This document shows positions 21,571 to 50,427 of a DNA stretch of 64,000 nt, piece by piece. The notes below the pieces were generated by a model. That model was not told the origin of the DNA and did not search any database. It saw only the letters and a list, made by a program, of their open reading frames with translations. How positions within the stretch are numbered: position 1 is the stretch's first letter; each line of letters starts with the position of its first letter. Made by a program: the position numbers and the translations under genes. The stretch comes from Marinomonas colpomeniae (GTDB lineage: Bacteria > Pseudomonadota > Gammaproteobacteria > Pseudomonadales > Marinomonadaceae): positions 186,001-250,000 of the forward strand of contig NZ_JACYFC010000002.1 of the NCBI RefSeq assembly GCF_014803385.1. The letters are read 5' to 3'.

Positions 21571-21611
21571 CTAATAAATAAGAACTTAGATAAATAGTTC
21601 TTATTTATTAG
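21571..21611. repeat. AT-rich perfect inverted repeat downstream of gmhB
   Basis: Arms CTAATAAATAAGAACT and AGTTCTTATTTATTAG pair over 16 bases with a nine-base loop. It sits between the end of gmhB and the AraC gene. There is no T run directly after the stem on the minus strand, so it may be a weak terminator or a protein site. Confidence 0.5.
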
Positions 21612-46463: not shown

Positions 46464-46871
46464 AAAAAACTCCAGACTGAACGAAAGAAAGAGAACCAGT
46501 AAACGCCTTTTGCATTTGGTTGTCTCTTCATATTAATTGATAGTAAGCAAAGGTCGAACGATGAAAAATGGTAGGCAATCAATTTAATGTTTGATGTGCT
46601 TCAAACATTAAACTCTGAGAAGTAATGTGAAGAAGTTAACAGGTTAACCTTCTCCAAAGTTAATTGATGTTCTTCTGGCAAGACATATCATTTCCCCCTG
46701 TAGATATTAGCTGTACACCATCGCTATGCCTCTGTTGGAATAGGGTTGATAATTTCCTTTTACAGTCTTCCTTATTTATCCATTACTTTTATGACAACAG
46801 ATTACGAGAAGCATGAGTAATCTATAAAATAGGAAGAATTAACTTGATGTAGCTCGGTTTGGAGAAAGTAT
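46464..46871. other. Intergenic region gabD to orphan gene
   Basis: No gene seen in 408 bases. It holds the inverted repeat at 46583-46612 and will contain the gabD promoter. Nothing else stands out, apart from a short GGTTAACC palindrome near 46640. Confidence 0.55.
46583..46612. promoter_or_regulatory. Perfect inverted repeat upstream of gabD
   Basis: TTTAATGTTTGA and TCAAACATTAAA, 12-base arms around six bases. No T run follows, and the spot upstream of gabD suggests a regulator binding site. Confidence 0.55.
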
Positions 46872-47225
46872 TTGCCATATTTAGAACAGTTTATGCAGCA
46901 GTGGAAAGCGTATTTGTTAAGCGAGTTTACCGTTTATGGGCTTGATTATAATGAAACCGATAGCAGCGAAGATTTTGATATTAAAACGAATTCGCTGGTT
47001 TATTTCGGTTGGTTGCGTAGGACGTTTCAATCGACAAATAACATGGATAAATCAAGAGATGATGTCGTTTGGATTATGCTAGAAAGGCAATTAAGAGAGC
47101 TCGCAAAGAAAGCTGAAAAAGGCAGTGCTAACTTAGTTTCTAAGATGTGTTTTGATGAAAGGCAAATTCAGATTATCCTCAATTTTAGCTACGATGATGA
47201 GCAACATATTATCTATGTAAGCTGA
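46872..47225 (+). CDS. Hypothetical protein, 117 residues
   Basis: Not recognised. An acidic soluble protein with several aromatic residues (WKAYLLSEFTVYGLDY, LVYFGWLRRTF) and no membrane segment or metal motif. The start appears to be TTG at 46872, with GGAG about eight bases upstream, which supports it as a real gene. It stands alone, convergent with lpdA. No function can be offered. Confidence 0.55.
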   Translation: MPYLEQFMQQWKAYLLSEFTVYGLDYNETDSSEDFDIKTNSLVYFGWLRRTFQSTNNMDKSRDDVVWIMLERQLRELAKKAEKGSANLVSKMCFDERQIQIILNFSYDDEQHIIYVS

Positions 47226-47276: not shown

Positions 47277-48686
47277 CTATTTAGCTTTCTTTGCTTTCTT
47301 ATTCGGTAAATCTGTAATGGTTCCAGCGCCCAGTTCCGCAGCGAGTCCAACTGTTTCATGTAAGCTTGGGTGGGCATGAATGGTTAAAGCGATATCTTCT
47401 AGTGTTGCACCAAATTCAATGGCGAGAGTCAGTTCACCGAGTAATTCACCTGCGTGAGAACCAACAATACCAGCGCCTAATACGCGTTCTGTTGCTTCAT
47501 CGTAGATGAGTTTGGTTTTGCCTTGAGTCACGCCGGAAGCAATCGCCCGACCACTTGCACTCCATGGGAAAACAGCCGTTTTGACTGGAATTTCTTGTTT
47601 CTTCGCTTCGGTTTCTGTTAAGCCAACCCAAGCAACTTCTGGAAAGGTGTAAGCAATAGAAGGAATGGCAAGCGGTTGGAAATCCACTTTATGTCCTGCA
47701 ATTACTTCGGCTGTAATATGGCCTTGATGAGACGCTTTGTGAGCAAGCATAGGTCCGTGAGTCACATCGCCAATAGCAAAGATATTGGGTACAGATGTTT
47801 TACCTTGGTCGTCTGTTAAAACAAAGCCTCTTTCGTCTAGTTCAACGCCTATCTCCGCAATACCTGCCGTGCGACCATTTGGAGAACGACCAACAGCCAC
47901 CAAGACAGAATCAACAGCCAGATTACGTTCCCCGTTTTTGTCTTTAAGTGTAATGTTCAAGGCTTTTGGGGTGGCTTTGATATCAATTACTTGGGTTTGA
48001 GTTAGGAACGTCATGCGATCTTTATTGGCTTGTTCAAAAACTTTTACTAGATCTTTGTCTGCCCCTGTCATGATTTGATCACCTAATTCCGCAACAGTTA
48101 TCTTTGATCCTAATGATTGATACACAGTCGCCATTTCTAAGCCAATAATCCCACCGCCGAGTACCAAGAGGTGTTTTGGAATATTTTCAAGTTGTAAGGC
48201 GCTGGTAGAGTCTAGAATGCGTGAATCGTCATAAGGAACGAAAGGCAATTTAATTGCGCGGGAACCGACGGCAATGATGGCATTTTTAAATTCAATTTTT
48301 TCTTCTTTGCCTTCTTTGGTCACAATGATGGAGTTGGTTGAATCAAACTTACCTTCGCCATGAAGTACGGTGACTTTCCTTCCTTTTGCCATCATGGCGA
48401 GGCCGCCAGTTAATGTGTCTACGGTGGATTGTCTGTGAAGTCGAACATCGTCTAGATTTATGGTTGGTTTAGTAAATTGCACGCCATGCGCTGGCTCATC
48501 GGCCATAAGAATTTTCCCTGCCACATGCAATAAGGCTTTGGATGGTATGCAGCCGACATTCAAACAAACACCACCTAAAGCATTATGGCGCTCGATCATA
48601 GCAACGTTTAAACCTAAATCTGCTGCGCGGAAAGCGGACGCATAACCACCAGGCCCACTTCCTAATACCACAAGATCGTATGTCAT
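47277..48686 (-). CDS. lpdA: Dihydrolipoyl dehydrogenase
   Basis: FAD enzyme of 469 residues that reoxidises protein-bound dihydrolipoamide with NAD. The redox disulfide is in GGVCLNVGCIPSK, and the catalytic His-Glu in HAHPSLHETVG. It ends in a short lysine-rich tail. The start at 48686 has AGGAGAG upstream. No E1 or E2 gene of a dehydrogenase complex is adjacent, so it may be a shared or alternative E3. It is divergent from a TetR gene across a long palindrome, so expression is probably under local control. Confidence 0.93.
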   Translation of the reverse strand: MTYDLVVLGSGPGGYASAFRAADLGLNVAMIERHNALGGVCLNVGCIPSKALLHVAGKILMADEPAHGVQFTKPTINLDDVRLHRQSTVDTLTGGLAMMAKGRKVTVLHGEGKFDSTNSIIVTKEGKEEKIEFKNAIIAVGSRAIKLPFVPYDDSRILDSTSALQLENIPKHLLVLGGGIIGLEMATVYQSLGSKITVAELGDQIMTGADKDLVKVFEQANKDRMTFLTQTQVIDIKATPKALNITLKDKNGERNLAVDSVLVAVGRSPNGRTAGIAEIGVELDERGFVLTDDQGKTSVPNIFAIGDVTHGPMLAHKASHQGHITAEVIAGHKVDFQPLAIPSIAYTFPEVAWVGLTETEAKKQEIPVKTAVFPWSASGRAIASGVTQGKTKLIYDEATERVLGAGIVGSHAGELLGELTLAIEFGATLEDIALTIHAHPSLHETVGLAAELGAGTITDLPNKKAKKAK

Positions 48687-48720
48687 TTTTACTCTCCTCA
48701 AATCGGGTTTCGTAAGGTAG

Positions 48721-48756
48721 TTATATTCTACCTATCTCAAGATAGGTAGAATATAA
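48721..48756. promoter_or_regulatory. Near-perfect long palindrome, probable TetR operator 1
   Basis: Arms TTATATTCTACCTATCT and AGATAGGTAGAATATAA are exact reverse complements of 17 bases around two bases. It lies 35-70 bases upstream of lpdA, in the lpdA-tetR gap. Confidence 0.8.
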
Positions 48757-48784
48757 CTTGTGGATTTGTGTCAGGTCAATAAAA

Positions 48785-48804
48785 TACCTATCACTAGATA
48801 GATA
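48785..48804. promoter_or_regulatory. Probable TetR operator 2
   Basis: TACCTATCACTAGATAGATA agrees at 17 of 20 positions with the centre of the palindrome at 48729-48748. It lies 28 bases before the TetR start codon, consistent with autorepression. Confidence 0.7.
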
Positions 48805-48831: not shown

Positions 48832-49395
48832 ATGAGCAAAGCAAAATTTGATACTAAATCTAAGATTCAGGACGTAGCTGAGCGTTTTATTATTCAAGGA
48901 GGATATGGAAATTTTAGCTTTCGAGACATAGCAGAAGCGGTTGGTATAAAGAGTGCGAGTGTTCACTATCATTATCGAACTAAAGGTGATTTGGTTGCTA
49001 CTGTAATGGCTCGTTATACCCATACCTTTTCTTTGATGCTGCCAGACCCTCATAATGAAGAGCTTGATGCCAAGCATCTACTGAATAGTTTCATTGACGG
49101 ATTTAAAGACAAGATTGTTACTAACGGCGATATGAGTTTGTGTACTATGCTGACATCAAATAAACCAATTTTACCTGAGCCCGTTTGCGATGAACTGGCT
49201 GTATTTTATAAGGTAAAGTTAGATTGGGTGACGCAAGTTTTAGTACGTTTAGAGCAGGTCACTGAAGAGGAAGCCTTGATTAAAGCAAGTCAGTTGCTTG
49301 CTTGTCTGCATGGTGCCTCCATTTTGGTTCAAGGCACCAATGATCCGACTTTTTTTGATCGAGCTCTGTCTTATTGGAAAATTGCTTATGTTTAA
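48832..49395 (+). CDS. TetR family transcriptional regulator
   Basis: A 187-residue protein with an N-terminal helix-turn-helix (KIQDVAERFIIQGGYGNFSF, then RDIAEAVGIKSASVHYHYRT). The C-terminal ligand domain contains several cysteines (MSLCTMLTSNK, VCDELAV, LACLHG). Divergent from lpdA, with two related operator-like sites between. It probably represses both genes and is released by an unknown signal. Confidence 0.9.
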   Translation: MSKAKFDTKSKIQDVAERFIIQGGYGNFSFRDIAEAVGIKSASVHYHYRTKGDLVATVMARYTHTFSLMLPDPHNEELDAKHLLNSFIDGFKDKIVTNGDMSLCTMLTSNKPILPEPVCDELAVFYKVKLDWVTQVLVRLEQVTEEEALIKASQLLACLHGASILVQGTNDPTFFDRALSYWKIAYV

Positions 49396-49485: not shown

Positions 49486-50427
49486 ATGAGCTTACAAGAT
49501 AAAAATCTACATAATCCTAAGTTTACATGGAGTTTTCTTGCGCCGAAGTTTTGGCTTACTTGGTTGTTAATGATGTTTGCATTTATATTGGCGTATGTTC
49601 CTTTTCGACTCCGTGACAAGCTTGCAAAGAAAATCGTCCCTTTTGTTATCAATAAAAAAAGCAGTGCTCTAAAACGTGCTCGCTTAAATCTTCAACATTG
49701 TTTCCCAAATAAATCGTTAGAAGAACGAGATGTCATGTTACGTGATAGCTTAGGCACCGCCATTCAGTTTTGTTTTGCTTATGGTGAATTGTTTGTCCGT
49801 AGTGAAAAATATAAAAAAAATCGGAATGAAGTGATTGGGGGAGAAAACCTATTCCCTTTGTTAGACCGGGGTGAAAACGTTATTACATTAGTACCTCATT
49901 GTTGGGCGATTGATTACACTGGGTCAATGTTGGCATCACTTGGGTATACGATAACAACCATCATGAAGCCTCAAAAAAATCCATTAATGGACTGGATTAT
50001 GCACTCCCAGCGTATGCAATATGGGCGTGGTGTTGTTTATCCTCGAAGTGCAGGAGTAAAACCTTTCTTACAATCCGTTAAAAAGGGTTACGTTGGTTAT
50101 TATTTACCAGATGAAGATTTAGGTGCACAGCACTCTGTATTTGTTCCTTTCCTTGGTGCCGAAAAAGCAACCATGAAAGGGTTAGGTAAACTAACTAAAT
50201 TAACGAAAGCCCATATTGTTCCTATGTTTCAAGCTTATAACGACAAAACAGGGAAATATGAGTTACATATTTTTCCCGCGCTTGAGAACTTTCCTACAGG
50301 TGACGATACCCAAGATGCTATTTTGATGAACCAAGCATTAGAAGCCATGATCGAAAAACACACGGAACAATATATGTGGATTTTGAATTTGCTACGAAGT
50401 CAGCCAGATGGTAATAACCTGTATTAG
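49486..50427 (+). CDS. lpxM: Lipid A acyltransferase, LpxM type
   Basis: Inner-membrane enzyme of 313 residues that adds the last acyl chain to Kdo2-lipid A. An N-terminal membrane segment (TWLLMMFAFILAYVPF) precedes the catalytic HxxxxD-like motif in LVPHCWAIDYTG and the segment KKGYVGYYLPDEDLGAQHSV. The YYLPDED region and the ending EQYMWILNLL match LpxM (MsbB) rather than LpxL. I start at 49486 (MSLQDKN); longer forms have a basic extension with no good ribosome site. Confidence 0.88.
   Translation: MSLQDKNLHNPKFTWSFLAPKFWLTWLLMMFAFILAYVPFRLRDKLAKKIVPFVINKKSSALKRARLNLQHCFPNKSLEERDVMLRDSLGTAIQFCFAYGELFVRSEKYKKNRNEVIGGENLFPLLDRGENVITLVPHCWAIDYTGSMLASLGYTITTIMKPQKNPLMDWIMHSQRMQYGRGVVYPRSAGVKPFLQSVKKGYVGYYLPDEDLGAQHSVFVPFLGAEKATMKGLGKLTKLTKAHIVPMFQAYNDKTGKYELHIFPALENFPTGDDTQDAILMNQALEAMIEKHTEQYMWILNLLRSQPDGNNLY

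Follow-up and report, generated by a model that had tools for sequence, protein, structure and literature searches.

lpdA and tetR stand as divergent neighbours in the window, the 64,000-nucleotide stretch of Marinomonas colpomeniae DNA analyzed here. lpdA (47277–48686, minus strand) encodes a predicted stand-alone dihydrolipoyl dehydrogenase (E3) that matches TIGR01350 at 486.8 bits, against a cut-off of 408.8, and carries the catalytic motifs, namely the redox disulfide CxxxxC motif GGVCLNVGCIPSK at position 38 and the C-terminal His-Glu motif HAHPSLHE at position 437; no E2 gene adjoins it. tetR (48832–49395, plus strand) encodes a predicted TetR-family regulator of 187 aa, residues 14–56 of which match PF00440 (E 4e-10). 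The lpdA start codon (ATG at 48686) and the tetR start at 48832 leave a divergent gap of 145 bp, which contains an exact palindrome at 48719–48758 with perfect 19-base arms, a 2-base spacer and 38 paired bases. The sequence-only reading had recognized a perfect palindrome here but had underestimated its length, giving 17-base arms with a 2-base spacer and 34 paired bases. It had also ranked the element among the longest of the window, and it is in fact the longest perfect inverted repeat when spacers of 0–12 bases are allowed. The longest arm per sequence was 9–12 bases in 20 simulated first-order Markov sequences matched in length and composition. The second-longest palindrome of the window, at 21571–21611, has 16-base arms and a 9-base spacer.

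The central 20 bases of the palindrome at 48729–48748, TACCTATC-N4-GATAGGTA, form the core of putative operator 1 and lie over the predicted lpdA start point. They recur at 17 of 20 positions in putative operator 2 (48785–48804), which is conserved and lies over the predicted tetR start point; the two centres are 56 bp apart, as had been noted from the sequence alone, and none of these palindromic features is assigned a strand. The proposal to look for further copies of the core was followed by a search of the 3.7-Mb Marinomonas genome for TACCTATCN4GATAGGTA with up to three mismatches. One site without mismatch and one with a single mismatch were found, and these are the two lpdA–tetR sites; the other 15 matches all have three mismatches, in line with the 18 matches of a reversed-pattern control. 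At least 13 other one-mismatch sites from ten genus genomes, part of them inspected singly, were considered as extra regulon members and are taken as chance matches: 11 lie inside predicted ORFs, and the two outside ORFs (L110, L113) have no common neighbour.

Each operator core begins directly at a -10 box or one base past it, so the expected start point is covered. The predicted lpdA promoter (48750–48779, minus strand) consists of -35 TTGACC (48779–48774), an 18-bp spacer and -10 TATATT (48755–48750). It reached 10 of 12 consensus matches in a promoter scan in which 1.0 such site is expected by chance in the region, and it is therefore conservation that carries weight for this promoter. The putative tetR promoter (48758–48785, plus strand), with -35 TTGTGG (48758–48763), a 16-bp spacer and -10 TAAAAT (48780–48785), was read by eye; it is absent from the promoter-scan output for the region and its -35 is weak. 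That this promoter was read by eye and that the single scan match is at chance level both count against the repression model. Its -10 box lies inside the conserved block GTCAATAAAATA in a footprint of 28 orthologous intergenic regions, in which the conserved parts are both operators, AATATA-R-CT and GTCAATARAAT. The two promoters interlock within the 56-bp gap, the -35 box of each adjoining the other's -10 box.

How widely is this arrangement kept? Among 48 Marinomonas genomes, the window's own (G000) included, lpdA is held at ≥64% identity by 28, and all 28 of these have tetR divergent beside lpdA together with both sites, whose centres are spaced by 56 bp in 23 regions, 57 bp in three and 66 bp in two. 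The arrangement that the sequence-only reading had regarded as unusual, the specific control of a lone E3, is thus no one-off of the strain but a conserved lpdA–TetR unit. Nine genomes keep tetR without an adjoining lpdA (G003, G014, G015, G016, G019, G029, G058, G059 and G060), which implies other uses of TetR or its decay in those genomes, a point against the repression model. hemF lies beside tetR in eight of the nine; in the G059 counterpart (L147), a hemF match was not found at the threshold used. Both lpdA and tetR are truncated at their facing ends in G008, and only a tetR fragment is present in G011. In G008 (L048/L097), a single deletion has taken the facing 5' parts of both genes, which we count in favour of the repression model. 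G017 and G023 carry an lpdA of 59–60% identity elsewhere in the genome, plus a more distant TetR, and G028 carries such an lpdA with no TetR match; G068 has a distant TetR only, and G001, G002, G022, G034 and G057 have neither gene. The site was not found in the upstream stretch read of the stand-alone lpdA genes of G017, G023, G028 and G135, which also speaks against the model.

Several features of the surrounding genes were seen in passing. A palindrome with 12-base arms (TTTAATGTTTGA...TCAAACATTAAA) lies upstream of gabD at 46583–46612 and may be a gabDT operator. A 117-aa ORF at 46872–47225 has no Pfam or NCBIfam match, and a 56% homologue occupies the same place in G008 (L048). The lipid A acyltransferase gene at 49486–50427 falls genus-wide into two identity classes at the same locus, at about 56–60% and 64–84%, which look as if a diverged version had replaced the gene. 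Catabolic genes of the proline-racemase/hydroxyproline type occur in genomes without intact lpdA (L083, L084, L086, L087, L095, L097 and L098), either beside tetR or between an lpdA remnant and gabD. A general gabDT link was considered, as gabD adjoins tetR in G029, and was discarded: most lpdA-less genomes carry the hydroxyproline-type cluster beside tetR, and no common target emerges.

Beyond the genus, a stand-alone lpdA goes together with this type of TetR in seven genomes; three more (G666, G734 and G767), which seem to be of the same species as three of the seven, were left out of the count. The pair is divergent with two sites in G181, G094, G155, Natronospirillum and Marinimicrobium, site 2 being weaker in G094 and G155. 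In Reinekea and Saccharospirillum, lpdA is followed by tetR in the same orientation, and a single site precedes lpdA. An alignment-query scan of GTDB contigs gave 80 TetR loci, and 50 of those outside the genus (L151–L202 without L154 and L159), four of them lpdA-linked, were examined for the site. Within about 250 bp upstream of tetR, 35 of the 50 distant loci have an exact match to the operator consensus CTAYCN4GRTAG, compared with 7 of 1105 control segments from the same loci (Fisher P 6e-48, a value that overstates independence as there are close relatives among the loci). In 45 of the 50 distant relatives there is a recognition-helix motif of the GIKSASVHYH type. The neighbours within 3 kb are diverse: ChrR cupin at 16 loci, GST at 13, SDR at 13, FAD amine oxidase at seven, lpdA at four, VOC-like at four and CMD/AhpD-like at two, with 11 loci having none of these classes. 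One locus may count in several of these classes; Pfam labels come from representatives, and the VOC-like label was given by eye, the two VOC-like proteins having no Pfam match. The site tracks the regulator and not its target, and no other computational argument speaks as strongly for this TetR as the binder. A paralogous TetR with operator-like sites, 34% identical, is encoded in the window's own genome (C9:554202–554702). At this locus (L108, G000:C9:551500–559500), the paralogue follows a CmcJ-like ORF, labelled by eye, and faces VOC-like and ChrR-cupin genes with operator-like sites before them (TACCTACCTGATGGTAGATA; CTACCTTCTGGTAGGTAG precedes the VOC-like gene).

The sequence shows the sites, how they are placed, that they are conserved and that they go with this TetR subfamily; from this we infer binding, repression and induction. 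We propose that lpdA and tetR share a control region of about 75 bp with two interlocked, divergent sigma-70-like promoters, and that a TetR-family dimer would bind two operators, each just downstream of one -10 box and over the start point. Bound TetR would stop RNA polymerase at both promoters and thus repress lpdA and its own gene; a ligand or a modification would free TetR from the DNA, so that more of the stand-alone E3 is made. Because the operators lie at the predicted starts of two interlocked promoters, repression by a dimeric TetR is the best explanation. We assign a probability of about 0.88 to the reading that a TetR dimer binds both sites, represses lpdA and tetR and is released by a ligand or a modification. 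Comparative genomics strongly supports the TetR control of lpdA that had been proposed from the sequence alone, and likewise TetR control of tetR itself.

Other readings of the two sites fit less well. TetR could act at site 2 on its own gene and on no other, with site 1 belonging to another regulator or being accidental, as the lpdA-less genus genomes read show a site just near tetR. We regard this as very improbable, given that site 1 fits the same consensus and occurs at near-fixed spacing in all 28 lpdA-linked regions, and that the tandem pairs of Reinekea and Saccharospirillum carry a site before lpdA. A long perfect inverted repeat might also be a transcription terminator, a mobile-element end or another DNA-structure element, an explanation that is scarcely credible here: the repeat lies between two divergent starts, a scan of the region found no terminator-like site, and the core is unique genome-wide apart from site 2 and conserved as an 18–20-bp operator. 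The outer arms are another matter. The sequence-only reading took the palindrome as an operator; the conserved, predicted operator is its central 18–20 bases, whereas the full-length 19-base arms are common to only two other species of the 28. Such arms, seen in G000, G056 and G012, mirror the lpdA -10 box. Template switching, or quasi-palindrome correction, is a mutational route to such symmetry. As each left arm copies its own right -10 flank, down to the variable base of AGYTATATT, in just these three species, the extra length is probably a mirrored -10 region produced by quasi-palindrome correction and not part of the operator, an origin that we favour by a modest degree; a longer TetR contact or a second -10 box favoured by selection is a possible alternative. 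This origin concerns just the additional arm length.

What, then, does the switch serve? E. coli Lpd is the E3 of the aceEF–lpd operon, and LpdA is closer to it (4jdr, 558.5 bits, one of the two closest solved E3 relatives) than to Pseudomonas-type enzymes; a literature search on Pseudomonas Lpd3 gave no match. The sequence-only statement that this E3 stands apart from any complex was borne out. The genome has only two E2 genes (on contigs C1 and C10), sucAB–lpd lies on another contig than lpdA (C8), and aceE–aceF lies on a third (C10) with no lpd alongside, so that lpdA lacks the linkage to aceF that marks a PDH-complex E3. The second Lpd of the genome, which adjoins sucAB, is 41% identical to LpdA. 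By these comparisons, LpdA is a PDH-type E3 living alone. In an Lpd tree, whose root is unsure owing to long outgroup branches, the PDH-operon Lpds form one group (89/99) that also takes in two stand-alone rows, and the remaining stand-alone Lpds form two groups (84/70 and 92/81). A single clade for the TetR-linked Lpds was not obtained, and no fewer than three changes are required on the tree. The LpdA of G181 is placed within the Marinomonas group (98/90), a position compatible with transfer of the lpdA–tetR pair.

One account of the target is metabolic: LpdA would be a detached E3 of pyruvate dehydrogenase, and TetR would tune its level to a pyruvate- or NADH-related metabolite, not to stress. 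The affinity to E. coli Lpd and the aceE–aceF genes without a neighbouring lpd suit this account, as does the finding that, across the class, an aceF homologue adjoins 27 of the 29 E. coli-type Lpd loci that were examined. However, 20 of the 48 genus genomes are without an intact lpdA beside tetR and all 48 have a second, LpdG-like Lpd, so lpdA would be dispensable for PDH; the GST, ChrR-cupin and SDR genes beside TetR relatives also speak against it. We consider this account possible, at clearly less than even odds. A different purpose is suggested by the regulator. Its AlphaFold model (pLDDT 90.8) has an all-helical two-domain fold, and the best Foldseek and VIA matches are TetR-family proteins; an N-terminal TetR_N HTH, the all-helical fold and a palindromic operator near its own gene, recognized on sequence grounds, place it in that family. 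All 12 rows of alignment A2 have Cys104, as do 46 of the 50 distant relatives and, as judged by eye, all 28 lpdA-linked proteins; the residue is replaced in four of six aligned proteins from lpdA-less genus genomes (L042, L043, L045 and L046) and kept in L041 and L044. Based on this near-invariant cysteine, the GST and ChrR-cupin neighbours of relatives and the presence of NemR, an electrophile and hypochlorite sensor, among the nearest folds, we tentatively name an electrophile or oxidant as the most likely releasing signal, at less than even odds. A more speculative and rather unlikely extension is that an E3 freed from 2-oxoacid metabolism serves as an inducible thiol/dihydrolipoamide reductase in the defence against electrophiles or oxidants, controlled by a TetR subfamily that bears a cysteine and has GST, ChrR-cupin, VOC-like and AhpD-like (CMD) genes as its targets elsewhere, with lpdA–tetR moving between marine gammaproteobacteria as one cassette.

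Under the repression model, a TetR subfamily that is widespread and apparently undescribed would be connected with a defined operator and with several kinds of target, and the regulon of this subfamily would thereby be predictable from sequence across many marine bacteria. The model may also help to explain why some bacteria have an E3 of no complex, and the inducer would tell the purpose of the enzyme. In the literature titles and abstract openings searched, no stand-alone lpd under a TetR regulator was found described.

Known systems resemble the lpdA–tetR unit in part. The solved structures nearest to TetR are 3on4 (Legionella) and 2g7s (Agrobacterium), followed by 4yze (NemR) and 4l62. The first two, both uncharacterized, are the closest solved relatives by sequence and fold; their titles give no function or target, and no structure with a known ligand is apparent, by title, among the closest relatives of TetR. 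E. coli NemR (4yze) is near in fold (VIA Z 20.6, 181 residues at 2.5 Å) but shares just 17% identity with TetR, short of a clear sequence similarity. NemR C106 aligns with TetR C104 in MAFFT and lies two residues off in hhalign. NemR is encoded in one stretch with nemA and gloA in E. coli, whereas TetR has lpdA as its neighbour; relatives of TetR do adjoin GST and VOC-like genes. As clues to the signal, the nearness in fold and the conserved cysteine are suggestive only. E. coli-type Lpd is like LpdA in its active-site motifs and in its closeness among solved structures and differs in that lpdA lies outside any aceEF operon, with a predicted promoter and a TetR gene of its own. According to excerpts of a Streptomyces study, five of five tested TetR-family regulators less than 200 bp away repressed their divergent neighbour (PMC3511530), which, with the 145-bp gap here, we count for the repression model. 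Divergent autoregulated pairs of the TetR/tetA type (PF00440) are alike in the TetR_N domain and all-helical TetR fold, in a divergent target less than 200 bp off and in two palindromic operators over two divergent promoters; the target there is a pump, and here a dihydrolipoyl dehydrogenase that stands alone. The proposed mechanism follows ordinary TetR logic, and the interesting part is the target and its conservation with the regulator as a unit.
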